Source: Candidatus Eiseniibacteriota bacterium
GTDB taxonomy: Bacteria; Arandabacterota; Arandabacteria; JAGLYR01
DNA length: 46,073 bases
NCBI GenBank assembly: GCA_023132135.1
Contig: JAGLYR010000003.1
Coordinates: 1-46,073, forward strand
Direction of reading: 5' to 3'
The notes beneath the pieces are model-generated. The model was not told the DNA's origin. It made no database searches and worked only from the letters and a program-made list of their open reading frames with translations. The translations under genes and the position numbers were made by a program. Below are positions 5,984 to 46,048 of the stretch, piece by piece; the first letter of the stretch is position 1, and the number at the start of each line of letters is the position of its first letter.

Positions 5984-6020
5984 GGGAAACGCAGACCGCC
6001 GCATCGGTTGGGAAGGGAAG

Positions 6021-9964: not shown

Positions 9965-11653
9965 ATGCGGGATCGTCTGGGAGAAGTGTTGCTGGAAGCC
10001 GGCCTCGTGGGCGAGGACGACGTTCAGCAGGCGCTGGCTCGCAAGGAAGCGACAGGGAATCCTGTGGCGCAGTGTCTCCTGGAAATGGAGGTGCTGAGCG
10101 AAGAGGATCTCTGCGGGTTCCTGACGCAGCGCTACCGCGTGCCCACCATCGATCTGGAAAACGTGGAGATCGATGATGCGGCTGTCCAGCTTGTCCCCGT
10201 CGATGTCGCGCGCAAATTCCGGCTCATTCCCGTGTCCGTTGAAGGCCGCCGGCTGACGCTGGCGATGGCCGATCCCGGGAACTATGCCGCCGTCGATGAC
10301 ATCAAGTTCATCACGGGGCTGGAAGTTCGGGTCGCTGCTGCGACAGACTCGGCCATTTCGCGGGCCATCGACCGCCACTGCGGTGAAGACGGGGAGTCCT
10401 TGGCGGAGATCGTCAAGGACATGGCCGACGAGAGCGTCGAGGTCCTCGAAGCGGAGGAAGAGGACGACGGCGATGCTGCCGACTCGGCCCAGGAAGCTCC
10501 GATCGTAAAGTTCGTGAACTCACTGATCGCCGACGCGGTCCGTAAGGGTGTGAGCGATATCCACATCGAGCCCTACGAGAAAACGCTGAGAGTTCGCTTC
10601 CGCATTGACGGGACGCTGTTTGAAGTGATGTCGCCGCCGGTGAAGATGAAGTCGGCCATTATCTCGCGCCTGAAGATCATGTCCGATCTCGACATCGCCG
10701 AGAGACGCGTTGCCCAGGATGGCCGGATCAAGATCAAGGTTCTGAAACGCACGGTTGACCTGCGGGTGTCCACGCTGCCCACCCTGTTTGGGGAGAAGGT
10801 GGTCATGCGGATCCTGGACCAGTCCAACCTCAATATGGATCTGGAGAAGTTCGGATTCGGACCCAAGGCCCTGAAGGACTTCCTTGAAGCGATCGAGAGT
10901 CCCTACGGAATGATCCTGGTCACAGGTCCCACGGGCAGCGGGAAGACCACCACCCTGTATTCGGCGATGAGCCGGCTCAACGTCCCGGATGTCAACATCA
11001 TGACGGCTGAGGACCCGGTGGAGTACAACCTGGACGGGATCAACCAGGTTCTGGTCAACGAAGAGGTGGGCGTCGGCTTCGCCGCGGCCCTCAGGGCTTT
11101 CCTCCGGCAGGATCCGGATATCATCATGGTGGGCGAGATCCGGGATCTGGAAACCGGGTCCATCGCCACCAAAGCCGCTCTCACGGGACACCTGGTCCTG
11201 AGTACCCTGCACACCAACGACGCGCCCAGTACCATCGATCGCCTGATCGACATGGGTCTGGAGCGTTTCCTGGTCGCCTCGGCGGTCAACCTTGTGCTGG
11301 CGCAGAGACTCGTCAGGAGAATCTGCAGCAATTGCAAGGAAGAATACCAACCGGAAGAGGCGCTGCTGCAACAACTGGACATCCCGCCGGAGGAGTTGGG
11401 CAACATCAAGCTTTTCAAGGGGAGCGGATGTCCACAGTGCAATGGGACGGGGTACTCGGGGCGAGTCGGACTCTACGAAGCTATGCCGGTAACCGCCCGG
11501 ATCCGGCACATGATTCTGGAAGGGTCGTCCTCGGACGAAATCCGTAAAGCGGCCATCGAGGAGGGAATGCTCACGCTGAGGGACGATGCGGTTCGGAAGA
11601 TGAAGAGCGAACTGACAACGATCACTGAGGTCCTGGGGGAAACTACCAGGTAG
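9965..11653 (+). CDS. pilB: Type IV pilus extension ATPase PilB
   Basis: Hexameric cytoplasmic motor that powers pilus assembly. The 562 residues comprise an N-terminal MshEN/GspE-N type domain (about 1-150), an acidic linker (EAEEEDDGD near 165) and the secretion ATPase core. The core shows Walker A GPTGSGKTT near residue 321, the AEDPVEYNLDGINQV box, VGEIRDLET (Walker B) and LSTLHTND. A tetracysteine zinc site (CSNC near 454, CPQC near 489) is typical of PilB and separates it from PilT. The ATG follows a sigma-54-type promoter. pilT starts 17 bp after the stop. Confidence 0.97.
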   Translation: MRDRLGEVLLEAGLVGEDDVQQALARKEATGNPVAQCLLEMEVLSEEDLCGFLTQRYRVPTIDLENVEIDDAAVQLVPVDVARKFRLIPVSVEGRRLTLAMADPGNYAAVDDIKFITGLEVRVAAATDSAISRAIDRHCGEDGESLAEIVKDMADESVEVLEAEEEDDGDAADSAQEAPIVKFVNSLIADAVRKGVSDIHIEPYEKTLRVRFRIDGTLFEVMSPPVKMKSAIISRLKIMSDLDIAERRVAQDGRIKIKVLKRTVDLRVSTLPTLFGEKVVMRILDQSNLNMDLEKFGFGPKALKDFLEAIESPYGMILVTGPTGSGKTTTLYSAMSRLNVPDVNIMTAEDPVEYNLDGINQVLVNEEVGVGFAAALRAFLRQDPDIIMVGEIRDLETGSIATKAALTGHLVLSTLHTNDAPSTIDRLIDMGLERFLVASAVNLVLAQRLVRRICSNCKEEYQPEEALLQQLDIPPEELGNIKLFKGSGCPQCNGTGYSGRVGLYEAMPVTARIRHMILEGSSSDEIRKAAIEEGMLTLRDDAVRKMKSELTTITEVLGETTR

Positions 11654-11670: not shown

Positions 11671-12753
11671 ATGGCTGAGTTGAGAAACCTGTTGCAGGAG
11701 ATGGTGGATAGGGGGGCCTCGGATCTCCACATCGTCTCCGGATCTCCTCCGCATCTGAGAGTGGACGGGGCGCTTGTACCCTGCGGCGAGAGCCTGTCGA
11801 TGGATGAAGCAAGGGCGCTGGGTTACAGCGTTCTCAGCGAGGCGCAGAAGAAGGAGTTCGAAATCAACAAGGAAGTCGATCTCGCATTCAGCATCCAGGG
11901 GGTCAGCCGCTTCCGGGCCAACGTTTTCACCCAGCGCGGCGCCGTGAGTGTCGCCATCCGGCGGATTCCATTCGAGATCCCACTGCTGGAGGATCTGGGG
12001 CTTCCCAATGTGGTGGAGTCGATGATCGAGAAAAACAAGGGCCTGGTTCTTGTGACCGGCCCTACCGGCAGCGGGAAATCCACTTCCATGGCGGCGATGC
12101 TGAACCGTATCAACCACCGGCGGCAATGCCACATCGTGACGGTGGAGGATCCTATCGAATACGTTCACCAGAACCACAAGAGCATCGTCAACCAGCGACA
12201 GGTCAAGTCGGATACGGTCAGTTTCGGCTCGGCCCTCAAACACGTGCTCCGCCAGGACCCCGATGTCATCCTGATCGGGGAGATGCGGGATCCGGAGACG
12301 ATGCTGGCCGCGCTGACCATCGCCGAGACCGGACATCTCGCCTTTGCCACCTTGCACACCAACTCGGCCTACGAGTCGGTCAACCGAATTGCCGACTCGT
12401 TTCCTTTGAGCGAGAGGAGGAATGTCCTCAGCCAGCTGGCCTTCGTGTTGGAAGGCGTCATCACACAGCAGCTGTTGCCGAGGAGTTCGGGAAAGGGGCG
12501 GGTCCTTGTATCAGAGGTCCTGATCTGCACGCCCGCCATCCGTGCGGTGATCCGTGAAGACAAGATTCACCAGGTCTACGGCCTGATGCAGGCAGGGCAG
12601 AAGTTCGGCATGCAGACCATGAACATGAGTTTGGCCAGCGCGGTTCGGAAAGGTCGCCTGACCAGCAAAGACGCCCTGAATCGCAGTCTGGATGGCGAGG
12701 AACTCGCGCAGCTCCTGGCGCAACAAACAGTGGCAGGGGCCCGGGCCAGGTAG
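11671..12753 (+). CDS. pilT: Type IV pilus retraction ATPase PilT
   Basis: Motor for pilus disassembly, needed for twitching and for DNA uptake through retracting pili. The 360 residues match family length. Seen: N-terminal ASDLHIVSGSPPHLRVDG, Walker A GPTGSGKST near residue 131, VEDPIEYVH, IGEMRDPETM and the His box HLAFATLHTN. The retraction-specific segment reads AIRAVIREDKIHQVYG, close to the AIRNLIRE motif of characterised PilT proteins. It lacks the tetracysteine site, as expected. The gene sits between pilB and pilC, as in Myxococcus and Pseudomonas-like loci. Confidence 0.97.
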   Translation: MAELRNLLQEMVDRGASDLHIVSGSPPHLRVDGALVPCGESLSMDEARALGYSVLSEAQKKEFEINKEVDLAFSIQGVSRFRANVFTQRGAVSVAIRRIPFEIPLLEDLGLPNVVESMIEKNKGLVLVTGPTGSGKSTSMAAMLNRINHRRQCHIVTVEDPIEYVHQNHKSIVNQRQVKSDTVSFGSALKHVLRQDPDVILIGEMRDPETMLAALTIAETGHLAFATLHTNSAYESVNRIADSFPLSERRNVLSQLAFVLEGVITQQLLPRSSGKGRVLVSEVLICTPAIRAVIREDKIHQVYGLMQAGQKFGMQTMNMSLASAVRKGRLTSKDALNRSLDGEELAQLLAQQTVAGARAR

Positions 12754-12769
12754 TTTGGAGGACTTGATC

Positions 12770-13981
12770 TTGCCGGTTTATCTGTGGAAAGGAAAAGACG
12801 GAGTCGGGAAAGCGGTTTCCGGGGAGGAGAGCGCGAAGGACCGACCCTCGGCCATCCGGCGGTTGCGGAAGCGCAAGATTATCGCGACGCAGGTTCGGGA
12901 AAAGCCAAAGGATGTCAAGATCAGCCTGGGACGCAAGAAAGGGGTCGCGGTCAAGGACCTGGCGGTATTCACCCGGCAATTCGCTACCATGATCAACGCG
13001 GGTCTCCCCATCGTCCTGTGTCTGGACGTGATGGCCAAGCAGGTAGAGAAGCCGGTCCTTCGTGAGGTGCTGACCCAGGTGAAGGAGTCGGTTCAGTCGG
13101 GAGGTACGCTGTCGGATTCGTTGAGCAAGCACACGAAGGTGTTCGACGAGCTGTACAGCCACATGGTCGAGGCGGGAGAGTCCAGCGGCGCGCTGGACGC
13201 GATTCTCGAGCGCCTCGCGGAGTACCTTGAAAAGGCAGAGCAGCTCCGGCGCAGGATCAAGAGCGCGATGATGTATCCCACGATCGTCACGATGATTGCT
13301 CTTCTCGCGACCTCGTTCCTCCTCATCTTTGTGATCCCGACCTTCACCAAGATGTTCTCGGATTTCGGAGGGCAGCTACCCCTGGTCACTCGCATAGTAG
13401 TAGCGATGAGTGACTTCCTGATAGGGTACTGGTGGCTCCTGCTGGCGTTGATCCTGGGCGGCCGGTATGCGTTCATGCGGTACCGTGCGACGGAAAAGGG
13501 CAGGGAGAAGGTGGACCGGTTGTTGCTGAAGATGCCTGTATTGGGGACGGTGCTTCGCAAAGGAGCAGTGGCGAGATTTACGCGCACATTGGGGACACTC
13601 CAGGTGAGCGGTGTTCCGATTCTCGAAGGTCTCTCCATTACGGCGAGAACGGCTGGAAATGTGGTTCTGGAGAAGGCCATCCTGAATACGCGGGACAGCG
13701 TGAGCCGGGGCGAAACACTGACCGAACCTCTGAAGGAGTCGGGAGTGTTTCCACCGATGGTGGTTCAGATGGTCGCGGTCGGAGAGGAAACGGGCGCGCT
13801 GGATCAGATGTTGACCAAGATAGCGGAGTTCTATGAGGACGAGGTGGACACAGCCGTTGACGGCCTGACCTCCGTGATTGAGCCGGTGATGATGGTGTTC
13901 CTGGGTGGGCTGGTCGGCGGCATGGTAATAGCCATGTATCTGCCCATCTTCAAGATGATCACCGTTATCATCGGGGACTAG
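12770..13981 (+). CDS. pilC: Type IV pilus inner-membrane platform protein PilC
   Basis: Platform protein that couples the motors to pilin polymerisation, about 403 residues, with two GspF/PilC domains. FTRQFATMINAGLPIV marks the first and FTRTLGTLQVSGVPILEGL the second. Three membrane segments are visible, near residues 170-190, 215-235 and at the C-terminus. The frame is open upstream to 12692 inside pilT, but GGAGG at 12757-12761 lies 8 bp before a TTG at 12770. That start gives the typical N-terminus (M)PVYLWKG. The last 26 codon bases and the stop form the template-like first copy of a 40-bp tandem repeat that fills the gap to pilS. Confidence 0.95.
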   Translation: MPVYLWKGKDGVGKAVSGEESAKDRPSAIRRLRKRKIIATQVREKPKDVKISLGRKKGVAVKDLAVFTRQFATMINAGLPIVLCLDVMAKQVEKPVLREVLTQVKESVQSGGTLSDSLSKHTKVFDELYSHMVEAGESSGALDAILERLAEYLEKAEQLRRRIKSAMMYPTIVTMIALLATSFLLIFVIPTFTKMFSDFGGQLPLVTRIVVAMSDFLIGYWWLLLALILGGRYAFMRYRATEKGREKVDRLLLKMPVLGTVLRKGAVARFTRTLGTLQVSGVPILEGLSITARTAGNVVLEKAILNTRDSVSRGETLTEPLKESGVFPPMVVQMVAVGEETGALDQMLTKIAEFYEDEVDTAVDGLTSVIEPVMMVFLGGLVGGMVIAMYLPIFKMITVIIGD

Positions 13982-19370: not shown

Positions 19371-20420
19371 GTGAATCGGAGGCGTAGTCGCTTGAGCCGC
19401 GTCGTGCGTGCGTGCGTGCTGCTCGTGCTGATAGCCGTTCTTCTGGTTGTGGAACGGCACACGTTGGGCGAGAGGCATGCATTCCGCCTCGCCGCGGGGT
19501 GGTCGCCTGTGCTGACGGGGAGCACCCTGCGAAGGCTGTCCTTCGGATATGACCAGGTTGCGGCTGATGTGATGTGGATCAGAGGTCTCCAGTACTATGG
19601 CAAGCAGCGGCTCTCGAGATCGCCCATGCCGAGGCTGGCCGAGTATCTCGATGCAGCGGTGGCCCTGGACCCCCATTTCATAGCAGCCTACATCTTCGGC
19701 GGAATCGTTCTGGCTCAGGATCTGAACCAGGGCGATGCCGCAGTGGATCTGCTCCTGCGCGGAATAGCGGCCAACCCGAAGAGCTGGGAACTGCCTTTCG
19801 AGCTGGGGTTCCTTCTCTACATAACTCTCGACGATCCCTATCGCGGGGGGAAGTACTTCGAGGTGGCCGTCACTCGGGAGGGATGCCCGGCAATGGCGCG
19901 TCGCCTTGCCGCAGGAGCCTATGCCAAGAGCGGGAGCCGGAGTGATGTCCGGAAGGTGTGCGAAGAAATCATGGAGATGTCGGACAATGAGGGCATGATG
20001 GAGTTCGCCAGGCGCGCGCTGGCGAAGATCCGGATGGAGGAGAATCTGGAGTACCTGCAAATGGGAATCGCGGGATTCCGGGAACGGGTGGGAACATGGC
20101 CCCCGGATCTGGAGTCGCTGGTGGGGTGCGGCGATCTGACCGGGATTCCATCAGAACCGGAGGGAGGGTTCTACGCCTACCGCCCGGAGACGGGGGAGGT
20201 GGGGAGCTCACTCCAGATCCAGCTGGCCCTCGATCGGCATTTCCGGGAACTGGAGGATGCCATAGCGCGCTACAAGGCGGAGAGGGGCCGTGTCCCTACC
20301 GGCCTCGAGGAGCTGGTGGTGGAGGGTTTCGTGGGCGAACTGCAGACGATTTTCGGATACCGTTTTGCATACGACCCATCCAGCGGCCGGATCTGGGCCA
20401 TGGATGCGTGGAGAACCTGA
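19371..20420 (+). CDS. Membrane-anchored TPR-like protein of the pilus locus
   Basis: About 349 residues: one N-terminal membrane segment (VVRACVLLVLIAVLLVVE), then helical TPR-like repeats (YLDAAVALDPHFIAAYIFGG, LLLRGIAANPKSWELPFELGF and onward to about residue 220). The C-terminal region contains two similar blocks (YLQMGIAGFRERVGTWPPDLESLV and LEDAIARYKAERGRVPTGLEELV), an internal duplication. No enzymatic motif is seen. The frame extends back to ATG 19311 inside an 8-bp tandem repeat, but GTG 19371, after a G-rich GGGGGGAAAGG, gives the better N-terminus. It lies between the ABC pair and pilD, so a scaffold role in pilus assembly is plausible. Confidence 0.75.
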   Translation: MNRRRSRLSRVVRACVLLVLIAVLLVVERHTLGERHAFRLAAGWSPVLTGSTLRRLSFGYDQVAADVMWIRGLQYYGKQRLSRSPMPRLAEYLDAAVALDPHFIAAYIFGGIVLAQDLNQGDAAVDLLLRGIAANPKSWELPFELGFLLYITLDDPYRGGKYFEVAVTREGCPAMARRLAAGAYAKSGSRSDVRKVCEEIMEMSDNEGMMEFARRALAKIRMEENLEYLQMGIAGFRERVGTWPPDLESLVGCGDLTGIPSEPEGGFYAYRPETGEVGSSLQIQLALDRHFRELEDAIARYKAERGRVPTGLEELVVEGFVGELQTIFGYRFAYDPSSGRIWAMDAWRT

Positions 20421-20421
20421 G

Positions 20422-21186
20422 ATGATGATGGTGTTGGTGTCCGTGTTCGGACTGATCGTGGGGAGTTTCCTCAATGTGTGCATCTACCGGATTCCCAGGA
20501 AGCTCTCCATCGTCCGGCCGGGATCGGCCTGTCCGGAATGCGGGCATCCGGTCCGGTGGTACGACAACCTGCCGGTGCTGAGCTACCTGTGGCTGCGGGG
20601 ACGCTGCCGGGACTGCGATGAGCGAATTACTCTCCGGTATCCGCTGGTGGAACTGATTACCGGACTGGGATTCCTTGCTGTGTTCCGGGTAGCGCCTGAT
20701 CTCATCTCCGGTCTGGTGGGTTGCGCGTTTGTCGCTCTCCTCGTTGTGGTGGCGTTGGTTGATCTGGACCACCGTATCATTCCGAACAGTATCGTGTTGT
20801 TTGGGACCCTCGTCGGTCTGGCCGCCGCCATGGCGGTGTCGCCGGGACTGGGAGGAGCGGTGTTGGGCGCTCTGGCCGGGGGAGGCGCACTGCTGGGCGT
20901 GGCCTGGCTCTACCGCCTGACGACAGGGGTCGAGGGCATGGGTGCAGGAGACATCAAACTGATGGGCATGGTCGGGCTCTTCGTGGGTTGGCAGGGAGCT
21001 CTGTTGACCATTTTCCTCGGCGCTCTGGCGGGGACCATCGTAGGGTTGGGGATCGTGGCGTTCCGGGGCGGGAATCGGCGTACAGCCGTTCCCTTCGGAA
21101 CTTTCCTGGCGCCGGCCGCAGTGGCGGTATGGCTTGCAGGCGAGCAGGTGCTCCAGTGGTACGCTCTGGCCCTCAACGGAGGCTAG
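20422..21186 (+). CDS. pilD: Prepilin peptidase / N-methyltransferase PilD
   Basis: Inner-membrane aspartyl protease that cleaves prepilin leaders and N-methylates the new first residue. About 254 residues. It has the cytoplasmic zinc loop with two cysteine pairs (CPECG and CRDCD), FLNVCIYRIPR near the N-terminus, and the two catalytic aspartates in VDLDHRIIP and MGAGDIKLMG (the GxGD motif). Eight or so membrane segments are visible. Three ATGs in a row start at 20422; GGAG at 20410-20413 supports the first. It would process the four prepilins encoded from 22882. Confidence 0.95.
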   Translation: MMMVLVSVFGLIVGSFLNVCIYRIPRKLSIVRPGSACPECGHPVRWYDNLPVLSYLWLRGRCRDCDERITLRYPLVELITGLGFLAVFRVAPDLISGLVGCAFVALLVVVALVDLDHRIIPNSIVLFGTLVGLAAAMAVSPGLGGAVLGALAGGGALLGVAWLYRLTTGVEGMGAGDIKLMGMVGLFVGWQGALLTIFLGALAGTIVGLGIVAFRGGNRRTAVPFGTFLAPAAVAVWLAGEQVLQWYALALNGG

Positions 21187-22881: not shown

Positions 22882-23376
22882 ATGAAAGCGTATAGCATCA
22901 ACCGGAAGCGTGAAGGCGGATTCTCATTGATCGAGCTCATGGTTGTCATCGCCATGATCGGCGTCCTGCTCGGCTGCAGCTTTGTATCTCTCCGCCACGG
23001 GATGCCGGGACACGGGCTTCGGGCAGCGTCAACCGATCTGGCCTCGGAGCTTCGATTGTCACGCCAGAAGGCGATCACGGAGAATAACAACTACACCGTC
23101 ACGTTTGATACGGGCACGCAGTCGTACTCGATCTGGGACGACGATGGCAGCGACGGATACCACTCGGCAGAGGAAGAGGTCCGGGTTATTGCTCTGGCCG
23201 AGGGGGTTGTTTTTGGGACGGTGAACATCGGGGCATCCAACGTGCTGACGTTCCGGGCGAACGGGAGTGCGAGTAGCGGCGGGTATGTTGAATTGCGCAA
23301 CAACTCCAGCGTTGCTCGGCGCGTGAGCATTACAAGGTCTACGGGCACTATCACCGAGAGCAGGGTGGACGGCTAG
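22882..23376 (+). CDS. FimU/GspH-type minor prepilin
   Basis: A 164-residue prepilin with a class III leader: REGG cut before Phe14, then FSLIELMVVIAMIGVLLG with the required Glu at mature position 5. The body has the GspH/FimT pattern (ASELRLSRQKAITENNNYTVTFD, then a beta-rich end with SVARRVSITRSTGTI). Such proteins prime pilus assembly as part of the tip complex. It is first in the operon fimU-V-W-X-like. It could in principle be a major pilin, but its GspH-type body argues against that. Confidence 0.88.
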   Translation: MKAYSINRKREGGFSLIELMVVIAMIGVLLGCSFVSLRHGMPGHGLRAASTDLASELRLSRQKAITENNNYTVTFDTGTQSYSIWDDDGSDGYHSAEEEVRVIALAEGVVFGTVNIGASNVLTFRANGSASSGGYVELRNNSSVARRVSITRSTGTITESRVDG

Positions 23377-23405
23377 ACTCGGTGGCATTCGGAGGAGCGT
23401 CGAAC

Positions 23406-23801
23406 ATGTCCGGGTTCTGGAATCGAGCCAGCGTATTCGTGAAGGGTACCGTCGGGTTCAGCGTGATCGAGATCATGGTGGCCGTCGTGATCTTCAGCAT
23501 CGGTGTGCTCGGGCTGGGTGCTCTGTTCCCCTTGGCGATTCGCAATGTCAACCAGAGTGCCATGATGACCCGGGCGACGCAGTACTCGAAATCGAAGATG
23601 GAAGATCTTATGGATGCGGGTGCGCAGCGCGTTGTTTCTGGAGCGGACACACTGAACGGGGGGTTTTACCGGTCGTGGCACGTGGCGCCGGACAGTTTGA
23701 CCGAAGGGCTGACTACACTCCGTGTGACGGTACTCTGGACGAGCGGAGGGACCGACAGGCGGGTCAACCTGAGCAGTACGATCGTGGACATGACCAAGTA
23801 A
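23406..23801 (+). CDS. PilV-like minor prepilin
   Basis: A 131-residue prepilin. Leader ends TVG, cleavage before Phe18, then FSVIEIMVAVVIFSIGVLGLGALFP with Glu at mature position 5. The segment after the helix (QSAMMTRATQYSKSKMEDLMD) is the common PilV/GspI pattern. The frame opens at GTG 23382, but GGAGG (23391-23395) lies 10 bp before ATG 23406, which is taken as the start. It follows the FimU-like gene by 29 bp. It is expected in the minor-pilin tip complex. Confidence 0.87.
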   Translation: MSGFWNRASVFVKGTVGFSVIEIMVAVVIFSIGVLGLGALFPLAIRNVNQSAMMTRATQYSKSKMEDLMDAGAQRVVSGADTLNGGFYRSWHVAPDSLTEGLTTLRVTVLWTSGGTDRRVNLSSTIVDMTK

Positions 23802-23816
23802 AGGAAGGCGATCCGC

Positions 23817-26801
23817 ATGTGTGCGCAGAACTCATCATCGAAGCGTCTGTTGAAGATCGGTAGCGAATCGGGGTTTTCGCTGATGGAAACCATCGTGGCA
23901 GTCACGCTACTGGGGATTGTGGCTCTGGCGTTCTACCAGACGTACAACGAGAGTCAGCGGCACCTGGTCCGAGGCCAAGCGGTGATGGATATGCAACAGA
24001 ATACGCGGATCGCTCTCGAGACGATCGCGGCCGAGCTGCGCTCTGCCCAGACGATCCATTCTCTCCAGTCCGATCGCATCACGTTCGTCTCGGATCTTTT
24101 CACACCCGGGCAGACCCGCGATATCCGCCTGGACACCGAGGATGTCGATCAGGACGGGAATCGGAGCGAGCTGCTGCTTACCCGTGAGCCCATGGACGAC
24201 GGAACGCCGGGAACCCAGACGGACGAGATTGCGAGCTCAATCGGATCGGTCCAGCTGCGCTATCTGACTTCGCTGGACGGCACGGTCGAAGCGCAGTCCG
24301 TCGACCAGATCCGGCGTGTCGAGATTACGGTTACCGGGATGCTGTCCGAATCGTATGGAGACTCGACACGAATCAGCTTTCTGACCACGGTACGGCCCCG
24401 GAACCTTAGGCTACCGGACCCGCCGGATCCGGATGCCGAGGCACCGGCAGCTCCAACAGGCGTGGAGCTCACACCCTCCTGCGGTGTGCTCGATATCACG
24501 TGGGAAGCCAATACGGAAGATGATCTCGGTGGGTACCGGGTCTCTTACAAAACCGGCGCCAGTGGAGCTCCGTACGACGGCATGGGTGCGATCCAGGGAT
24601 CGTCACCGATCTATGTGGCCACCGAGACGTTCCTCCAGCTTACAGGACTTGATCCATCGGAAGCTTACTACGTCGTCGTGACTGCGGTGGACGTGTCCGG
24701 CAACGAGAGTGGCTATTCTATCGAGCGAGTGGCGGTTCCCTATGACAACGCCCCTCCGCCGGTGCCGACGGGGGTTGCGGTCGAGGTGGGTGCCGACGAC
24801 GCGCTGGTCGTTGCGTGGGATGAGAGTCCGAGTAGCGACATCGCATTCTACCGCGTGTACTACGACTCGGATGAAAGCGGCGCTCCGTACGCGTGGTGGG
24901 ATTCGACCCGGATCATCCCTGCCCGTCTCGAGAATCTGTCGACGGGAACGACCTACTACATCGTCGTGACGGCCAGCGATGCCTGTGGTAACGAGAGTGG
25001 GTTCTCCAGCGAAGTCACGGGAGTACCGACCCCGTGCTCGGAAGATCACACACCGCCTGCCGTTCCGCAGGGAATCTCGGGTATTGCGGGCGACAGCAAG
25101 GCCACGCTGAGGTGGCAGGCCAACTCAGAACCGGACCTGCACACATACCGTCTTCTGTACGCCTCTGTCCATTCCGTAGACTCGGTGGAAGTGGGCTTGG
25201 GCACGAACTACACGCTGGAAGGTCTCACGAACGAGGTGGACTACGCATTCAGCGTGGTGGCTCTGGATGCCTGCGGAAACCGGAGCGGGGAATCGGCTCC
25301 GGTGACGCTGCGGCCCGTCTCCTGCGCCGGCGATGAGGTAGCCCCGCTGCCCCCGGCGGCCGTTGCAGTGGAGGATGCACGAGCTCCCACCGGAGATCAA
25401 CTGTTGCTGTCGTGGGCACCGAGTCTGGAGGCGGACCTCGCCGGATACTTGGTCTACTGTGGCGGAGCACCCCGTTCATATGCAGATCCCATTGATGTGG
25501 GAGATGTGGTGACTCTTGTTCTGGGGGATCTGGTTCCGTGGGAGCGGTACTACGTGGCGGTCGCGGCTTACGACCGATGCGGAAACTGCAGTGGATTCTC
25601 GATCGAGGCCACCGGGGTTCCAACATTCGGTTGCGAGTGTAACCCGAACGTGGCGTTTGTAACGCCCGCGGATGGCGCCATCGTGGAGGACATCGTAGCA
25701 CTGGTGGGCACCGTGTCGCCCTGCGCAGAACAGTCGATCATCAGGCTTGAGTTCTTGGTGAATGACTTTCCGGAGCGGGCGTGGATCGAGCCTCCGTTCG
25801 AACATCCGTGGGACACACGGCGCTGGCCGGACGGGTTCTACACGCTGGTGCTTCAGGCGACGGACGATATGGGCTGCCAGGGGCAGGACACGATTCATGT
25901 TCAGATCAACAACACGGGGGCGGGGCCCGGCTGTGTACGGGTAGATATCACCGAGCCGGTGTGGGTCTCGGGAATGTTTGACGAGGAAATCAATTTCGGC
26001 TTGGTGAACACCAGTGCCGTTGAGACGTGCGAACTGGTTTCGCTCAAGACGTGGTGGACGACCCAGAATCCGGAGATGTCGGTCGCGCGGCTCCACCGGA
26101 TTGAAATCCCGCGGGGGATGGAGGTCTGGGATGCCGGTCTCGAAGTCGGGGCGGCAGTCACCAGTGGTGAGGAAGTGCTGCTGACGTCCACGGTGTCAAT
26201 TACGGGTGGGTCGGGAGAAGACGTGCGCCTTTTCTTCTGGCACCAAGATGGGGATATGAATCCCGGGGGACGCATGAACATGCCAATGGGGCAGGTCCTG
26301 GTAAGTACCCAGGGAGTGGTCCAGCCCTCGCGTCTGTGCCCAGCGGATTCCTTCTACACAGGCTGTTTGATCAACGTGGCGAACCTGACGGTGTCCACGG
26401 GCAGAACCTATCAGACGGCCTATATCACGGTGGGAGACCATTACTACATCGACCGGAACTACTACGTCCAGGGGATCCCGAGCCAGTTCGAAGATCTGCT
26501 CTGGATCATGACAGCCAATGGGGACAAGTTTGAGGGGGCGGGGTATGCCCTGGAGTTTGACGTCGACCGGCGCGTTATCCTCTACGTGGCGTACGACTCA
26601 CGAGACGTCCCGCCTCACTGGATTACCAGCGAATACACCCCTGTGGGCCTTTCCATCGATGTGTCCGATGTGGGTGCGGATGTGCTGGATCTCTGGGCCA
26701 GGGAATTCCCTGCGGGACACATCACGCTCTACGGTAACAGAGAAGCCGGCGCGGGCTCAGGAGTCAAGACTAACTACGTGGTTCTCCTGGATTGCCGGTA
26801 G
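23817..26801 (+). CDS. Giant PilW-like prepilin with fibronectin-III domains (candidate pilus-tip adhesin)
   Basis: The 994-residue protein begins with a PilW/GspJ-type prepilin module: cleavage at G19 before FSLMETIVAVTLLGIVALAF (Glu at mature position 5), then a short pilin head to about residue 200. Four FN3-like domains follow, starting near 205, 311, 407 and 503, each with a P-P-x-x-P-x-G start and an A-x-D-x-x-G-N-x-S-G near the end. An Ig-like domain (VAFVTPADGAIVEDIVALVG) starts near 605. The last 290 residues are beta-rich and end with a block (ILYVAYDSRDVPPHWITSEY, then FPAGHITLYGN) resembling ligand-binding modules of secreted enzymes. Ordinary PilW is about 200-300 residues. It may replace the absent PilY1 as an adhesin. 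Confidence 0.85.
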   Translation: MCAQNSSSKRLLKIGSESGFSLMETIVAVTLLGIVALAFYQTYNESQRHLVRGQAVMDMQQNTRIALETIAAELRSAQTIHSLQSDRITFVSDLFTPGQTRDIRLDTEDVDQDGNRSELLLTREPMDDGTPGTQTDEIASSIGSVQLRYLTSLDGTVEAQSVDQIRRVEITVTGMLSESYGDSTRISFLTTVRPRNLRLPDPPDPDAEAPAAPTGVELTPSCGVLDITWEANTEDDLGGYRVSYKTGASGAPYDGMGAIQGSSPIYVATETFLQLTGLDPSEAYYVVVTAVDVSGNESGYSIERVAVPYDNAPPPVPTGVAVEVGADDALVVAWDESPSSDIAFYRVYYDSDESGAPYAWWDSTRIIPARLENLSTGTTYYIVVTASDACGNESGFSSEVTGVPTPCSEDHTPPAVPQGISGIAGDSKATLRWQANSEPDLHTYRLLYASVHSVDSVEVGLGTNYTLEGLTNEVDYAFSVVALDACGNRSGESAPVTLRPVSCAGDEVAPLPPAAVAVEDARAPTGDQLLLSWAPSLEADLAGYLVYCGGAPRSYADPIDVGDVVTLVLGDLVPWERYYVAVAAYDRCGNCSGFSIEATGVPTFGCECNPNVAFVTPADGAIVEDIVALVGTVSPCAEQSIIRLEFLVNDFPERAWIEPPFEHPWDTRRWPDGFYTLVLQATDDMGCQGQDTIHVQINNTGAGPGCVRVDITEPVWVSGMFDEEINFGLVNTSAVETCELVSLKTWWTTQNPEMSVARLHRIEIPRGMEVWDAGLEVGAAVTSGEEVLLTSTVSITGGSGEDVRLFFWHQDGDMNPGGRMNMPMGQVLVSTQGVVQPSRLCPADSFYTGCLINVANLTVSTGRTYQTAYITVGDHYYIDRNYYVQGIPSQFEDLLWIMTANGDKFEGAGYALEFDVDRRVILYVAYDSRDVPPHWITSEYTPVGLSIDVSDVGADVLDLWAREFPAGHITLYGNREAGAGSGVKTNYVVLLDCR

Positions 26802-26826
26802 ATGGGATTACCGAGGAGGGATTAAC

Positions 26827-28626
26827 ATGTGCAACGACTTCGCACACCAGCGCGAGTGCAGAAGGCTGTGGAAGGATGAGAAGGGGATGGCCTTGGTCAT
26901 CGCCCTCTCGCTCTTGGCGGCGATGAGCATGCTGGGAGCGCTCTATGTAGCCCTGTCGTCTACAGAGGGGCGCATCGCGGTGAACGAGAACCTCGCAGCC
27001 AAGGCGCTGATGATGGCCGAAAGCAGCTGGAACGTGGCCTACCGGGAGTTCTCGAACGTCAACTTCCACTACTACACACACAACGCGGATGGGAGCTTTC
27101 CACCGGCCGACGCTCTGACCTATGTGGCTACTCCGCACGTCGTTCTGGACGATTTGGAGAACAATGGCCTGAGCGACGAGAGGAACAACGGTGATTTTGT
27201 CTGGGAATGGCAACCGGGGAACGAACACATGTCTCTCTCCGGAGGGACCCTGCCGGAGTCCTTCCGATTTCGGATCTACCCGAGGACCGACAATGCGGGA
27301 GAAGACGAGCTCTTCCTGGAGTGCACAGGCCGCGTGGGGAACGCGACACGCACCATTCGCATCGGGCTTTTCAAGGAGTCGGGTTTCAAGTACGCGGTCT
27401 TTTCGGATGGAGACCTGGGAGAGTTCACGCGAGGCCGGGATCAGACGATAGCAGGTCCGATCCATGCAAACGGTGACATCTGCTTCCGTCCAGAGGCGGG
27501 GCAAACCTTGAGCCTGGACAGCGAATCGGTCACATGCACAGGGGAAATGATTCGGTCCCGGGATGTCTGGGGACGTCCGGCGCCCTCGGGATCGACTGTG
27601 GAAATCAAGGACGGAGACGGCGTTTACCAGGAGATGGACAACGGTGACCCGGGAGAGGCGTTTGACAGCGAGAACCCGGACTGGTTGGACTGTGATGAGA
27701 CCAATGGGATCGAAGGTGCGCTGGAGAAGTGGGACGGCATCGTTCGGGATGGCCAGCTGGGAGGGCAGTATATCAAACCCCCGGACTTCGACGCGTTCAA
27801 GGTCGGAGGGTACTACGAGTGCCAATCAGGTCTGAGAATTCACGCGGCAGATTTCCAGACTGACGGGTCGGGTCTGGATATCACGGGTACCATTGCAGAT
27901 GCAATCTACGAAGTGACGTTCTGGAATCCGAACTTGGACCAGTTCGTCATGGTGCAGGAGATTGACCTTGCGCTTCTCGCAGCTGCGGGTTGTTACCCGG
28001 CCAACGGGCTGATTTTCTCCGACCAGCCCGTTCGGCTCGTGAACGCCGGCGAGCTACAGGCACCGTTGACGGTCGTCGCAGACAACTCTATCTACACCAA
28101 GGGCAGCTTCAATGGCGTGGACAAGAAGCCTGCAGCGCTCGTGAGCACGGGCCGGGTCTGGCATCTCTCAGACAACTGGCGGGACGACGACGAGTATACC
28201 AAGGGATCGCTGGCCGGCCGCCAGGCCAGTGACGGAACGACCATCATCAATGCGGGCATCGTGGACGGCGCTCCTACGATCAACGAGGCAAACTGGGCGG
28301 ACCTGGACGACGATGGGACCCCCGATGGATATTCGGGGGACGCGTGGGCCAACTCGGACTGGCTGCTTGAGGTCTGGGGTGGAGGACCGCAGCGAGTCCT
28401 GGTCAAGCGGGGCGCGGTCATCCACCTCCAGAAGGCGAACATGGCGGACGACCCCGAGAGCAATGTCGTTGACGAACCGGGAGAGATCGCGTGGCAGAAG
28501 CACAGCGCATACATGCCCCCGATTCGCGATTACGCATATGACCCCGACATTGCGAACCCGTGGTTCCAACCGCCGTTCACCCTGAACGTGGCCAAGATCT
28601 TCTCTTGGGAAGAAGTAATCCCGTAG
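26827..28626 (+). CDS. Enlarged PilX-like minor prepilin
   Basis: 599 residues against about 200 for ordinary PilX. The N-terminus has a PilX-type leader and helix: EKG cut before Met21, then MALVIALSLLAAMSMLGALYV, lacking Glu at mature position 5 as is common for this family and GspK. A long beta-rich body follows, with segments such as TIAGPIHANGDICF near 215 and NGLIFSDQPVRLVNAGEL near 400. They resemble surface assemblies seen in large PilX-like proteins; the fold is unknown. GAGGAGGG (26813-26820) sits 6 bp before ATG 26827. It is last in the prepilin operon. A GspK-like cap function at the pilus tip is an inference. Confidence 0.78.
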   Translation: MCNDFAHQRECRRLWKDEKGMALVIALSLLAAMSMLGALYVALSSTEGRIAVNENLAAKALMMAESSWNVAYREFSNVNFHYYTHNADGSFPPADALTYVATPHVVLDDLENNGLSDERNNGDFVWEWQPGNEHMSLSGGTLPESFRFRIYPRTDNAGEDELFLECTGRVGNATRTIRIGLFKESGFKYAVFSDGDLGEFTRGRDQTIAGPIHANGDICFRPEAGQTLSLDSESVTCTGEMIRSRDVWGRPAPSGSTVEIKDGDGVYQEMDNGDPGEAFDSENPDWLDCDETNGIEGALEKWDGIVRDGQLGGQYIKPPDFDAFKVGGYYECQSGLRIHAADFQTDGSGLDITGTIADAIYEVTFWNPNLDQFVMVQEIDLALLAAAGCYPANGLIFSDQPVRLVNAGELQAPLTVVADNSIYTKGSFNGVDKKPAALVSTGRVWHLSDNWRDDDEYTKGSLAGRQASDGTTIINAGIVDGAPTINEANWADLDDDGTPDGYSGDAWANSDWLLEVWGGGPQRVLVKRGAVIHLQKANMADDPESNVVDEPGEIAWQKHSAYMPPIRDYAYDPDIANPWFQPPFTLNVAKIFSWEEVIP

Positions 28627-28959: not shown

Positions 28960-30165
28960 ATGTTCCTGGATAAGCTCAGACACATCATCACGCGCGGTCG
29001 GGGGGCTTCGGAGGAGAACGCTTCGGAAGAGACCCCGCCGAAGAAGCTCCTTCCGGATTTCCTCTCCCGCTTGACCCGGTTCACGTGGGTCAAGGAACTC
29101 AACGTCATCGCTCGCCTTGTGGCCCGGCGCCAGGCGCCTCACATGTACGGGGTGGATATCGGGTCGAGCAGTGTGAAGATCCTGAAACTCTCCAACGAGG
29201 GCGGAGAGCTCCAGGTAACGGCGGCTGCCGTTGCCGAGCTTCCCGAGGATGCCATCGTTGATGGGGAAGTGATGGACCACGATGCAGTCGTGGGCGCGAT
29301 CGAGATGGCGATGGTGGAGCACGATCTGGAGCCGGGGATGGCGGTGGTGGGACTGAGCGGGCGGGCAGTGATCGTCAAGAGAATCTCGATGGAGAAGACG
29401 GATCCGGATCTGGCGCGGGAAACGCTGGCGTATGATGCGGCTGAGCACATACCGTTTGAGCCTGGCGAGGTCTGCCTGGATCTTCACATCTTCGAGCCTG
29501 CCCCGGAAGCGGAGATGATGGATGTTCTCCTGGTAGCGGCAAAGCGCCCGGTCGTGGAACTTCAGGCGGACATCCTGACAGCGGCGGGCCTCACGCCCGC
29601 CGTGATTGATGTGGATACCTTCGCCCTTTCCAACGCCTACCTCATGACTTGCGAGCCTGTAGAGAACGAGAATGTCGCCATTGTGAACATCGGCAACTAT
29701 GTGACGAACATGGCCGTGATTCAGAATGGTTTTCCGTGGGTCATGCGTGATCTGGCGGTTGGCGTCAGCACATTCATGGAAAAGGTCATGGGGACGCTCG
29801 CCGCCGACAAAGCCCGGGCAAGGGATGTGCTGTTCGGCTCTCCGGAGAGAGGCGATGCGAGTCTGCCTGAGATCGTGGCCGAGGTTGGGGGAGAGCTCGT
29901 CAGTGAGATCGAGCGCTCCCTGGCGTTTGCCGATTCGGGTGGAGGAGGGGGGGACCTGACCAGGATGATACTGTCGGGGGGTGGGTGCCGTGTCGACGGG
30001 CTCAAGGACTTCCTGGCAGAACGGCTCGGGATTCCTGTCGAGATAGCGGATCCCTTCCGGGTTTTTAAATGGAGTGACGAGGTGCTCCTGGAGGAGCTGG
30101 CGGAAGATATCGCGCCCCGGTTCATGATCGCCACGGGTCTCGCGTTGAGAGGAGTGCAGGGCTAG
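28960..30165 (+). CDS. pilM: Type IV pilus assembly protein PilM
   Basis: Actin-like cytoplasmic ATPase-fold protein that binds the N-terminus of PilN. The 401 residues begin with an unusual extension of about 60 residues, Lys/Arg-rich with an acidic patch (SEENASEETPPKK). The actin-type core then starts at YGVDIGSSSVKILKL. Further core segments are VVGLSGRAVIVKRI, DVLLVAAKR, NVAIVNIGNYVTNMAVI and ILSGGGCRVDGL. AAGGA about 7 bp before ATG 28960 supports the long form. It is the first gene of pilMNOPQ and follows a consensus sigma-54 promoter. Confidence 0.94.
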   Translation: MFLDKLRHIITRGRGASEENASEETPPKKLLPDFLSRLTRFTWVKELNVIARLVARRQAPHMYGVDIGSSSVKILKLSNEGGELQVTAAAVAELPEDAIVDGEVMDHDAVVGAIEMAMVEHDLEPGMAVVGLSGRAVIVKRISMEKTDPDLARETLAYDAAEHIPFEPGEVCLDLHIFEPAPEAEMMDVLLVAAKRPVVELQADILTAAGLTPAVIDVDTFALSNAYLMTCEPVENENVAIVNIGNYVTNMAVIQNGFPWVMRDLAVGVSTFMEKVMGTLAADKARARDVLFGSPERGDASLPEIVAEVGGELVSEIERSLAFADSGGGGGDLTRMILSGGGCRVDGLKDFLAERLGIPVEIADPFRVFKWSDEVLLEELAEDIAPRFMIATGLALRGVQG

Positions 30166-30725: not shown

Positions 30726-31370
30726 GTGACTGTCGATATCAAGGACCCATTTGTTCAGAAAGCCGCTCTGGCGGGGCTTGGTTTGGCCGGTCTGCTGTAT
30801 CTCTATTTCGGAACGGCCGTCGTGCCTTTTTGCTACAGGCCACAGGTCGCAGCCGCGCAGGAGATCCGGGAGACTGTTAATCGGCTGAGCGGCGATCTTG
30901 CGCGGGCGAAGGCGACGGCAGAGGGACTCAAGTCTCTCGAATCTCAGTATGCCAGACTGGAGCGAGACTGGAAGCGCGCTCAGGACATGCTGCCCGAGAA
31001 AAGCGAGATCCCAAGGTTCCTGGCAGGCGTGACTCGCTCGGGTCTGGACTGTGGTCTTGAAGTGCGCTTGTTCGAGCCGAAGAAAACCGTCGGTCACGGA
31101 TTTTTCACGGAGAGTCCAGTGGCGATGAAGGTCGCCGGTCAGTATCACCAGGTCGGGGAGTTCCTGGCGCGCGTTTCCAGCCTGCCAAGGCTCGTCAACG
31201 TGGACCGGCTCCAGATTCGAGAGCAGATGGGCGTGGATGACGGGGACCACACGGTGGAGATGGAACTGATTCTGTCGGCGTACTACCTCGAGGATGATAT
31301 GCGGGTTGGCGGCGGTGCGGTCGCGCCGACATCGGAGCCGGCGGTGCAGAAGCGCGGAGAGGAACACTAG
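30726..31370 (+). CDS. pilO: Type IV pilus assembly protein PilO
   Basis: Partner of PilN in the inner-membrane alignment complex, 214 residues: short cytoplasmic N-terminus, membrane segment (ALAGLGLAGLLYLYFGTA), coiled-coil (about 40-90) and the periplasmic domain (MLPEKSEIPRFLAGVTRSGLDCGL, then QYHQVGEFLARVSSLPRLVNV). GTG start 7 bp after the pilN stop. The extreme C-terminus is a Glu/Gly/Pro tail. pilP follows at once. Confidence 0.92.
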   Translation: MTVDIKDPFVQKAALAGLGLAGLLYLYFGTAVVPFCYRPQVAAAQEIRETVNRLSGDLARAKATAEGLKSLESQYARLERDWKRAQDMLPEKSEIPRFLAGVTRSGLDCGLEVRLFEPKKTVGHGFFTESPVAMKVAGQYHQVGEFLARVSSLPRLVNVDRLQIREQMGVDDGDHTVEMELILSAYYLEDDMRVGGGAVAPTSEPAVQKRGEEH

Positions 31371-31374
31371 GCTG

Positions 31375-32310
31375 ATGATCGGACGGAGCATGCACACTCG
31401 CTGGATGTACATAGCTGGAATCGTCGCTCTGTGCATGATGGGATGCGTTGTGGGCCTTTCGCGGGTAGACGTCGGCCGGTGTGGGAAGTGGGTTGTCTCC
31501 AGCGCGATCGGTTTCTTCGCCCGGCAGGAAGTTTCGCCCGATTCGGGAGGATGGGCCGTTGCGGAGCCTGCGCGGGCCTCAGAGCTTCCTTCCCTGTTCC
31601 AGATGGCAAAGGTCGAGAACAAGAAGAAAGCGGCCGAGACTGGTCTGAAGATCCTCTCGGGTCAAACGCAGGCGATCATTGATTCCCAGGTTGACTCTCA
31701 GGAAGAGCCTGCGGTTGAGCCTGCGGTTGAGCCTGCGGTTGAGCCTGCGGTTGAGCCTGCGGTCGAGCCTGCGGTCGAGACGGAGAATGCGCCGGAGCAG
31801 GTCAGGGAGGCGCGGCAGAGTTTCGTGAAAGGGCTGGATCAGCTCAAAGATCAGTTCCGGAGATCGGAGGAGTCCGAAGATGACGGGGAGACCGTGGGCA
31901 TATCTTCCCGGCCGCCGCTGGAGTTGTCCGTGGGGGAGCAGCCCGCAGGACCGCAGCAGGCTGCAGTCCGGCGATCCGCTGATCCCCTGCGAGCGAAGTT
32001 CAGCTACGGCGCTCACGGGCGGAGGGATCCATTCCGGGCCCTCATTTCCAGGAGTGACGGAACAGAGCGTACGGGCAGGTTGAATCTGGACGAAGCCCGG
32101 CTCGTGGGCATCCTCTGGGGAGGCAAGAGCGATCTGGTGCTGCTCGAGGGCCCTGGCGGAGTCTCTTGTTGCTTGAAGAAAGGTGATCGTGTCCAGGACG
32201 GGCGTTTGGAGACAATTCGATCGAATTCGGTTGTCTTCAGCCGTTTCCGCTTTGGTCGAGCAGAGACGGTGGTTCTCGAACTGGAACAACAGAAGGCCGG
32301 TGGCTCATGA
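31375..32310 (+). CDS. pilP: Type IV pilus assembly protein PilP with an EPAV repeat linker
   Basis: Links the PilN/O complex to the PilQ secretin. About 311 residues: an N-terminal hydrophobic segment with a Cys (ALCMMGC, possible lipidation site), a low-complexity linker, and the C-terminal PilP/HR-type beta domain (RRDPFRALISR, LNLDEARLVGILWG, LLEGPGGVSCCLKKGDRVQDGRLETI). The linker holds six repeats of EPAV, encoded by a 12-bp tandem repeat at 31705-31776, and makes the protein longer than usual. ATG 31390 is an alternative start. The stop overlaps the pilQ ATG (ATGA). Confidence 0.9.
   Translation: MIGRSMHTRWMYIAGIVALCMMGCVVGLSRVDVGRCGKWVVSSAIGFFARQEVSPDSGGWAVAEPARASELPSLFQMAKVENKKKAAETGLKILSGQTQAIIDSQVDSQEEPAVEPAVEPAVEPAVEPAVEPAVETENAPEQVREARQSFVKGLDQLKDQFRRSEESEDDGETVGISSRPPLELSVGEQPAGPQQAAVRRSADPLRAKFSYGAHGRRDPFRALISRSDGTERTGRLNLDEARLVGILWGGKSDLVLLEGPGGVSCCLKKGDRVQDGRLETIRSNSVVFSRFRFGRAETVVLELEQQKAGGS
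31705..31776 (+). repeat. 12-bp tandem repeat in pilP (six units)
   Basis: Six copies of GAGCCTGCGGTY, from 31705 to 31776, encode six Glu-Pro-Ala-Val units. The only differences are T or C at the last base. Because 12 is a multiple of 3, changes in copy number would lengthen or shorten the periplasmic linker without a frameshift. The likely effect is variation in linker length between strains. Confidence 0.92.
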
Positions 32311-34022
32311 TGAGAGGACAACACCGAGATATGAGGTTCTGTGCAGCTACGATTGCAACCATCCTGGTCGGAACAGTTCTTGTGCCGGGCGCAGCGTTGT
32401 GCCTGGCGGGCAATGTCAGCGTGGTTTCGGACGTCCGGGTGGATCAGAGGGCCGAGGGCACGTGCATCTTCCTCCAATCGGATGGTCCGTTGAAGTATGT
32501 TGACTTCACTCTGCCTGGGCCGGACCGCATTGTGGTTGACTGCTTCGACACGCACCGCCGGACGTCCAGGGAGCGATGGGACGCTCCCGAGGGCTCGGGG
32601 ATTCGCGCGATCAGGGTGAGCCAGTATCGTGTAGAGCCCAGGCCGGTCACGCGCATGGTTATTGATCTGGGCCACCGGGCACCCTATATCGTCAAACCCC
32701 TGGAGAACGGGCTGCTTCTGATCGTGAATCCGGTGGAGGCGATGGAGGCGGCTGCCAAACCGATCCCGCGCCCGCTGTCGGGAAAGGACAGGCCCCAGGC
32801 CAGGAGGTTTGGACCCGATCAGTCACCCGCCCCGACGGTGGCTCCGGCGCCGGAAGTCCGGGACGATCTTATTACCCTGGAGTTCCAGAACGCGGATATC
32901 CAGACCGTGCTGCGGAGTTTCAGCGATTACGGTGGCGTGAACATCATCTGGGGACCGGAAGTGAAGGGTGCGGTCACTGTCCATCTCGAGAACGTGCCAT
33001 GGCGAGAGGCGCTGGGTATTGTTCTGCGGGCCCATTCCCTGTCCTCGGTGGAGGAAAACGGCATCATCCGGGTCGGGGGCTCCCAGACGATGGAAAACGA
33101 GGAAATCACGAGGCACGCGGCGGCCCGAAAGAAAGAGGAGCTGCAAGCGCTCCAAACCAGCATCGTGCGCGTGAAGTTTGCCAATGCCGAGGAGCTCTTG
33201 GAGCCCTTGAGAAGAATTCTGGGACCCCGGGGCTCCATTGATGTTGAGACGAGGACGAACGCCATCCTGGTGACGGACATCGCGAAGGTTGTGACGCGTA
33301 TTGAGAATCTCGTCGCCGAGCTGGATACGCGAACGCCGCAGGTGGAGATCAACGCGAAAATCGTGGATGTCGATGCCTCGGTGAGCCGCGACCTGGGAAT
33401 TGACTGGACGGCCCTCGAGCTCATGGTTCCCTCGATCAGCGCGGAGGGGCGGGTTGACGTCTCCGCCGGTCTCATGACTCCCGTCGGGCAATTCACGGTC
33501 GGGAAGATCGAAGGTCCCAACGGCAAGCTGGAGATGACCCTGACCGCTCTGGAAAGGGAAAACAAGGCCAACATCATCTCGAACCCGAGGATCCGGACCC
33601 TGGACAACATGGAAGCCAGGATCCTTGTAGGGAAGAAAATCCCTCTCATCGTGTCTGACGAGGCGGGAAATCCCATCACCGAGATGACTACCATAGGGAT
33701 CCAGATGACGGTCACGCCCCATATCAACGCCGATGGACAAATCACCCTGGACCTGCATCCGGAAGTGAGTGATCTGGCCTCGCAGTCCACGGTCCAGGGT
33801 GGCATCATCATTCTGACCAGCGAGGCCCGAACACGGGTCATGGTCAAGGATGGGGAGACGGTTGTTATCGGGGGTCTCATTCGCAACAACGAGACGGAAT
33901 ACACCACGGGGGTCCCGTTTCTGAGAAGTCTTCCCCTGGTGGGGCGGTTCTTCCGGTCGACGAGCACGTCCATTGAAAAACGTGAGCTTCTGATCTTTGT
34001 CACACCGCGCATTGTGGAGTAG
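32307..34022 (+). CDS. pilQ: Type IV pilus secretin PilQ
   Basis: Outer-membrane pore for the pilus, 571 residues. Order of parts: signal peptide (about 9-35, ATIATILVGTVLVPGAALCLAG), one AMIN domain (about 36-130, cell-wall binding), a Pro-rich linker, an STN-type N domain (LITLEFQNADIQTVLRSFS), a secretin N1 domain (about 285-345, VKFANAEELLEPLRRILG) and the secretin barrel domain ending in VTPRIVE. GETVVIGGLIRNNETE and the VPFLRSLPLVGRFFRS segment are characteristic. The final 31 codon bases and stop, plus 7 bp, are perfectly duplicated directly downstream. Only one AMIN domain is seen. Confidence 0.96.
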   Translation: MMRGQHRDMRFCAATIATILVGTVLVPGAALCLAGNVSVVSDVRVDQRAEGTCIFLQSDGPLKYVDFTLPGPDRIVVDCFDTHRRTSRERWDAPEGSGIRAIRVSQYRVEPRPVTRMVIDLGHRAPYIVKPLENGLLLIVNPVEAMEAAAKPIPRPLSGKDRPQARRFGPDQSPAPTVAPAPEVRDDLITLEFQNADIQTVLRSFSDYGGVNIIWGPEVKGAVTVHLENVPWREALGIVLRAHSLSSVEENGIIRVGGSQTMENEEITRHAAARKKEELQALQTSIVRVKFANAEELLEPLRRILGPRGSIDVETRTNAILVTDIAKVVTRIENLVAELDTRTPQVEINAKIVDVDASVSRDLGIDWTALELMVPSISAEGRVDVSAGLMTPVGQFTVGKIEGPNGKLEMTLTALERENKANIISNPRIRTLDNMEARILVGKKIPLIVSDEAGNPITEMTTIGIQMTVTPHINADGQITLDLHPEVSDLASQSTVQGGIIILTSEARTRVMVKDGETVVIGGLIRNNETEYTTGVPFLRSLPLVGRFFRSTSTSIEKRELLIFVTPRIVE

Positions 34023-34067
34023 ACAGACGGATCTTTGTCACACCGCGCATTGTGGAGTAGACAGACG
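33992..34067 (+). repeat. Perfect 38-bp tandem duplication of the pilQ tail
   Basis: Bases 33992-34029 and 34030-34067 are identical over 38 bp. The unit covers the last codons of pilQ (IFVTPRIVE region), the TAG stop and 7 bp beyond. The second copy is non-coding in practice and places GGAG (34067-34070) eight bases before the next gene's ATG. Perfect identity implies a recent event or active maintenance. Confidence 0.95.
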
Positions 34068-34076
34068 GAGTTAACC

Positions 34077-45962: not shown

Positions 45963-46008
45963 TATATCCTGATATGTAGAGAAGAGATATCCATCATTCG
46001 TCCCCATG

Positions 46009-46037
46009 AATCTAGGCCTCCGGGTTGGGCAAGTCAA
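46009..46037 (-). promoter_or_regulatory. Sigma-70-type promoter of the metalloprotease
   Basis: On the minus strand TTGACT (46037-46032, 5/6 to -35), 17 bp spacer and TAGATT (46014-46009, 4/6 to -10). Transcription would start near 46002, about 40 nt before ATG 45962. Confidence 0.6.
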
Positions 46038-46048
46038 GCCAAATGGCC

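Follow-up and report, generated by a model that had tools for sequence, protein, structure and literature searches.

The product of an open reading frame at positions 23817 to 26801 of the forward strand is a giant PilW-type modular prepilin of 994 amino acids, in which a pilin module is followed by four FN3 domains, an Ig-like domain, an unassigned segment and a C-terminal domain, here called the cap, that is shared with enzymes. The window, by which we mean the whole stretch of 46,073 nucleotides that was analysed, is contig C223 of a draft genome of 3.4 Mb (96.4% complete, 0.4% contamination). Taking the analysis as a whole, we consider it reasonably probable that this protein is a modular minor pilin that would show its stalk and cap at the pilus tip, do PilY1's job in cis and, most likely, serve as an adhesin. 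An adhesin carried in cis at the tip is not a new idea, being the modular-pilin model of Raynaud 2021 (PMC8179133); for the stalk-and-cap family, for the cap and for the cassette shared by two phyla, no description was found in the literature searched.

Results

The reading frame translates into 994 amino acids with no internal stops, has a coding-like third-position GC of 0.62-0.75 along its entire length, and starts at an ATG that lies 15 bp after pilV and is preceded by a Shine-Dalgarno-like AAGGAAGG. Residues 1-19 (23817..23873) are a class III leader of 19 amino acids with Gly at -1, followed by a hydrophobic helix with Glu5. Namely, the motif reads SESG^FSLMETIVAVTLLG, or SESG^FSLME around the cleavage site, with predicted cleavage after Gly19, so that Phe20 is +1 and Glu24 is +5. 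Both general prepilin models recognise this region: TIGR02532 of NCBIfam scores 19.1 with a cut-off of 16.3, and Pfam N_methyl, whose cut-off is 21.2, gives 26.4 bits in a six-frame search and 21.1 in a protein search. Taken with the prepilin peptidase and the type IV pilus (T4P) machinery of the window, the leader, helix and Glu5 identify a type IV prepilin. No PilW family model of NCBIfam scores above its cut-off, the PilW-like NF007848 staying far below its own (E 0.003), and since only general prepilin models match, the name PilW is given by position.

The helix and pilin domain (residues 20-202, 23874..24422, +) were assigned from the sequence and from homology to the pilin part of the giants of genomes G174, G315 and G392, described below. 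They are followed by four FN3 domains, at approximately residues 203-308, 309-408, 409-507 and 508-606 (24423..25634, +), which Pfam fn3 detects as four stretches above its cut-off (E 2.5e-30) and which are clearly related to one another, with 25-41 identities per pair over about 70-104 columns. Next comes an Ig-like Big_7 domain (residues 607-702, 25635..25922, +), where PF17957 matches residues 610-677 with 25.2 bits, the cut-off being 24.1, and then a segment, probably rich in beta structure (residues 703-849, 25923..26363, +), which has no match in Pfam or in the PDB and is conserved in the G174 and G366 pilins. The cap (residues 850-994, 26364..26798, +) closes the protein. A pilin module fused in this way to domains foreign to T4P, namely four fn3, Big_7 and an enzyme-shared cap, makes the protein a modular pilin. 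In all these respects the sequence-only reading holds: it had described a pilin leader and Glu5 helix fused to about 790 extra residues, with four FN3-like domains and an Ig-like module, and had taken the whole for a minor pilin whose modular extension is exceptionally long.

The gene is the third of four minor-pilin genes in the order FimT-PilV-PilW-PilX at 22882-28626, all on the forward strand, and it thus occupies the position expected of pilW, between PilV and PilX and after FimT. The first product is a FimT/GspH-type minor pilin (22882..23376; Pfam GspH and N_methyl above cut-offs), the second a PilV-type minor pilin (23382..23801; TIGR02523 E 2.7e-9, below cut-off) and the fourth a PilX-type minor pilin of 600 amino acids (26824..28626), called from PilX_N (E 1.3e-4, below cut-off) and from its homologues; the bulk of PilX has no meaningful Pfam match. 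On the 5' side lie, also on the forward strand, the genes for the extension ATPase PilB (9965..11653; TIGR02538 738 bits, cut-off 676), the retraction ATPase PilT (11671..12753; TIGR01420 456 bits, cut-off 319), the platform protein PilC (12710..13981; NF052606 E 2.4e-152, below cut-off), a sensor kinase, two NtrC-type regulators and the prepilin peptidase PilD (20419..21186; Pfam A24_N_bact and Peptidase_A24). On the 3' side follow PilM (28960..30165, +; Pfam PilM_2 188 bits), a gene in the PilN position, PilO (30726..31370, +; Pfam PilO E 5.9e-30), a gene in the PilP position and the secretin PilQ (32307..34022, +; TIGR02515 327 bits, cut-off 284). Because PilB, PilT and PilQ exceed their NCBIfam cut-offs, the locus is, by its predicted products, that of a T4a-type pilus with a retraction ATPase. 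The window shows no gene for a major pilin.

Several other features of the locus and genome may be mentioned here. Directly 3' of pilQ, positions 34035-37271 encode a protein of about 1,060 amino acids in which Big_1/Invasin_D3 stretches occur nine times and which has a lipobox-like LWMGC; it is predicted to be a second large surface protein of the pil locus. On the reverse strand, 44199-46064 encode an M6 peptidase whose C-terminal Ig domain is FlgD-like, a type of secreted protease that is typical of such genomes. At least three further type IV filament loci, each with its own pilins, lie on contigs C308 (L079), C39 (L080) and C238 (L081), that on C308 including a 382-residue pilin with a carboxypeptidase-regulatory-like domain.

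The usual tip adhesin, PilY1, is itself not a pilin, and the sequence-only reading had noted its absence from the operon. Indeed, PF05567, the PilY1 propeller, has no match in PilW, in the operon or anywhere in the 96%-complete genome, so that a look beyond the operon returned the same answer. The seven phylum mates gave no match above cut-off either, and 14 control genomes gave none. The search itself works, since it gave matches above cut-off in 11 of 41 Nitrospirota genomes that served as a positive control. Given the completeness of the draft, PilY1 is likely to be truly absent from this genome.

No Pfam model, including those of the CBM families, and no NCBIfam model matches residues 850-994. 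A profile built from 11 caps, searched against the PDB, matches residues 867-988 of 6hpd, a GH2 enzyme, with an E-value of 7e-9, as compared with a far weaker 0.033 for the single cap sequence. An AlphaFold (AF2) model of the cap from a three-sequence alignment reached pLDDT 73 and pTM 0.73, and a single-sequence model of residues 691-994, with pLDDT 33, was discarded. In Foldseek, the best PDB match to the cap model is again 6hpd (TM 0.75, E 1.1e-5), followed by GH138 BP0997 (6hzf) with a TM of about 0.6 (0.63). In other words, the cap shares both the fold and detectable sequence similarity with the C-terminal domain of 6hpd. Structure prediction and a Foldseek search had been proposed for residues 690-994; for the cap, they point to 6hpd and GH138.

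The cap is also found well away from pilins. Two small secreted proteins homologous to it were found in a search of genome contigs at a Poribacteria locus, and 30 of the 59 Poribacteria genomes searched encode stand-alone cap proteins of about 200 amino acids. The cap-only secreted proteins at L020:9854-10483 and 10572-11183 stand in tandem, and others lie at loci L044-L076. Among 290 genomes spread over Bacteria, 12 further ones carry the domain, its hosts being an apiosidase-like protein, a protein with a GH115_C-like stretch, two metallophosphoesterases, Kelch proteins and a FecR protein; none was found in plasmids and viral contigs or in the window's phylum mates. Judged by these hosts, the cap moves among secreted proteins as an accessory domain, and in many cases, though not in all, it is found next to carbohydrate enzymes. 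The stand-alone family has two invariant arginines, in DR and DxR motifs, and because neither is kept in 6hpd, ligand-binding residues are not transferable from that structure. Glycan binding by the cap is possible, to go by sequence and model. The earlier suggestion that the end block resembles sugar-binding ends of secreted enzymes is therefore right as far as the enzyme-type domain goes, with both the 6hpd profile and the fold behind it, whereas its sugar-binding part is a lead only, because the cap also sits on phosphoesterases, Kelch proteins and a FecR protein.

Another phylum does contain homologues in which pilin and FN3 follow each other in this order, as it had been proposed to look for. 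Namely, G174, from another small phylum, encodes a prepilin with four fn3 and Big_7 that is colinear with the window's PilW, at 32% identity over 963 amino acids (E about 1e-148) up to the end of the G174 contig. G392 and G315 belong to the same family as G174 and have their giant PilW in two contig pieces each: the G392 pieces match at 38% over 631 and 29% over 387 amino acids, and G315 matches at 41% in the pilin, 32% in the FN3-Ig part and 35% in the cap, its pilin and FN3 parts being in different frames. The head was present in three of the five genomes searched of G174's phylum. The cassette FimT-PilV-PilW-PilX is kept in the same order in G315 and G392, where PilX is followed on its 3' side by groES-like sequence and not by pilM. 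PilX (window 26824-28626; L140:1083-2924; L131:516-2330) is 49% identical over about 585 amino acids across the two phyla and is the best-conserved member of the cassette, FimT and PilV standing at 32-37% and PilW at 32-38%. In the PilX tree, the window falls together with G315 and G392 at a support of 100/100, and a grouping with the PilX of the window's phylum mates is rejected (p-AU 0.0006); the trees of FimT, PilV and the PilW pilin domain are unresolved. These sequences can fairly be read as showing that the cassette was transferred from one phylum to another, and old vertical descent followed by loss is an alternative that may also account for them.

Two more pilins share parts of this architecture. 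G366 has a pilin of 673 amino acids with Big_7, a segment like 703-849 and the cap, without FN3, which is 26% identical over residues 609-987, and G213 has a pilin of 1798 amino acids that ends in the cap and is encoded between PilV and an 822-residue PilX. The G213 pair (L133:7239-12635 for the pilin and 4740-7208 for PilX, the latter with FG-GAP repeats) would make an even larger tip complex.

In the window's own phylum, a FimT-PilV-PilW cluster is present in all seven other genomes searched (PilV match E below 1e-48). Where complete, the PilW of these phylum mates have 987, 979, 976 and 884 amino acids; two that are cut by contig ends have at least 629 and at least 514, and one is unreadable beyond 188. 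These giants (L077:7394-10333, L104:11442-14405, L105:8993-11647, L106:1950-4880) are built of SdrD_B/carboxypeptidase-regulatory-like repeats and not of FN3 and cap, and three phylum-mate giants contain FG-GAP repeats, which could possibly form a propeller head. In three of these phylum mates there is another cluster, whose PilW is of ordinary size (289-290 amino acids), and the window's genome also has a 316-residue PilW on C39. Since the same genomes hold ordinary-sized PilW as well, giant size is a property of one cluster type and not of every PilW here. We also considered whether the giants of the phylum mates fill an orthologous slot in which modules were swapped in place, and we do not claim this, because the PilX tree joins the window to the other phylum and the other trees are unsettled.

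Discussion

How might such a protein work? Going by S. sanguinis PilB and PilC (PMC8179133, PMC9934059), the pilin part would fix it in the minor-pilin complex, and the extension would be exposed on the outside. PilD would cut the leader after Gly19, and the N-terminal helix and pilin domain would pack with FimT, PilV and PilX into a priming and tip complex, which PilB-driven assembly would move out through PilQ. The stalk of FN3 domains, Ig-like domain and segment would hold the cap beyond the tip, where it would bind a surface or a polymer ligand, such that retraction by PilT would pull on whatever the cap holds. PilW would thus supply in cis what a separate PilY1 protein supplies elsewhere. 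Models from M. xanthus arrange the proteins as PilA, FimU, PilW, PilV, PilX, PilY1 (PMC11046646, PMC13190605), so we would place PilW near the very end and not at it; we estimate the extended length of five or six beta modules at 20 nm or more, and a stalk of this kind would bring the cap past PilX.

Four observations speak against this picture: PilX is itself 600 amino acids long and better conserved than PilW; it is PilX, and not PilW, that comes nearest the tip in the M. xanthus models (PMC11046646, PMC13190605); the cap also occurs on proteins without an evident glycan role; and 6hpd lacks the two arginines that the stand-alone caps keep. One alternative is a purely structural extension, acting as a spacer or stabilising the minor-pilin complex, with adhesion left to PilX or to a surface protein such as the Big_1 protein encoded after pilQ, an account to which we assign a real but minor chance. 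With 49% identity against 32-38% for PilW, PilX is the member that varies least, and modelling for M. xanthus puts it beside the tip (PMC11046646); FN3 and Ig domains commonly serve as spacers, and a protein with nine Big_1 stretches is indeed encoded at 34035-37271. A spacer, however, needs no conserved cap, and this cap ends pilins that have no, four or many other stalk modules. Somewhat less probable still is that stalk and cap are not adhesins themselves and instead tether or present a partner, be it a secreted enzyme, a polysaccharide or a lipoprotein, much as CofB holds CofJ. The modular pilins CofB and TcpB work as adapters (PMC8179133), and the cap occurs alone as a small secreted protein and as an accessory domain of enzymes, but no conserved extra gene accompanies the cassette, and what follows PilX in G315 and G392 is groES-like.

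That the cluster instead builds a type II-like secretion pseudopilus or a DNA-uptake pilus, with the extension serving cargo or DNA, strikes us as improbable. There is homology between the minor pilins of the T2SS and those of T4P, GspH/XpsH models give scores for FimT, and for Thermus ComZ, itself a large modular pilin, DNA binding has been proposed (PMC8179133). On the other hand, the PilT, PilM, PilO and PilQ models fit a T4aP while those of GspE and GspD stay below cut-off, and the presence of a ComEA-like gene in another part of the window would be no reason to assign PilW to uptake. As for an assembly artefact or fusion, the genome is a draft MAG, and related giants are cut by contig ends and, in one case, by a change of frame; given a single open frame with coding-like third-position GC, a domain order that recurs entire in another phylum, and an oligonucleotide usage of the window closer to the rest of its genome than to G174 or G315, we regard the chance of this as negligible. 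Contamination by a contig from G174's phylum was considered separately and set aside, the GC content and tetranucleotide usage of the window fitting the genome's other contigs better.

The minor pilin with a tip-borne stalk and cap is hence the reading we prefer. A bolder version of it, which we offer tentatively and would not expect to hold in full, is a PilY1-independent tip-adhesin cassette of FimT, PilV, giant PilW and PilX in which PilW is an exchangeable platform for stalk and head, the FN3-Ig-cap form having passed between phyla as a single cassette, the phylum mates using, in a PilW of about equal size, SdrD_B modules for the stalk and an FG-GAP propeller for the head, and the cap binding polysaccharide.

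Modular pilins numbered over 1,200 proteins with 264 architectures in 2021, the most extreme multi-domain case having 860 residues (PMC8179133), and FN3 (IPR003961) is among their 15 most frequent extra domains (Raynaud 2021, PMC8179133). S. sanguinis PilB (pilin and vWA) and PilC (pilin, Ig and lectin) are adhesins (PMC8179133, PMC9934059). Like modular pilins such as S. sanguinis PilB, for which tip presentation was proposed (PMC8179133), the window's PilW begins with a prepilin motif and a pilin module and continues with non-T4P domains; unlike that PilB, with its one vWA domain, it has seven modules in stalk-and-cap order and a cap without a Pfam family, and its gene takes the place of pilW in the core T4aP cluster of a diderm. 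With S. sanguinis PilC (PMC9934059), it shares the combination of pilin, Ig-like and C-terminal beta-sandwich domains, that of PilC binding glycans; the head of PilC, however, is a ConA-like lectin, whereas the cap is, by predicted fold, a relative of the 6hpd/GH138 C-terminal domain, with four FN3 in addition. It would fill the same role as the PilY1/PilC tip adhesin (PF05567), that of a large variable surface part on a minor-pilin complex, although it is a pilin and lacks the PF05567 propeller. CofB and TcpB of T4b pili are likewise long minor pilins with beta-rich extra domains near the tip, but they are T4bP proteins, trimeric and of other folds by published description, and CofB is an adapter for CofJ. 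Finally, the cap has, by its model, the fold of the C-terminal domains of the GH2 beta-glucuronidase 6hpd and GH138 BP0997 (6hzf), which are accessory parts of enzymes, while the cap is the end of a pilin.

How T4a pili attach to surfaces without PilY1 is an open question in most uncultured phyla, and a long PilW that has a conserved cap and is partnered by PilX is one testable answer. In particular, the cap, having no Pfam family, offers a domain signature for finding more such pilins. The modular-pilin concept, known from experiment mainly in one monoderm, whose heads are small, would be extended to a core cluster of minor pilins in a diderm, where five or more beta modules make up the stalk, and different lineages may use PilW as a platform for heads of their own. 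Because whole-protein relatives adjoin the same partner genes in another phylum, the giant PilW is probably a real device, common to both phyla, by which a retractable pilus is fitted with a binding head.
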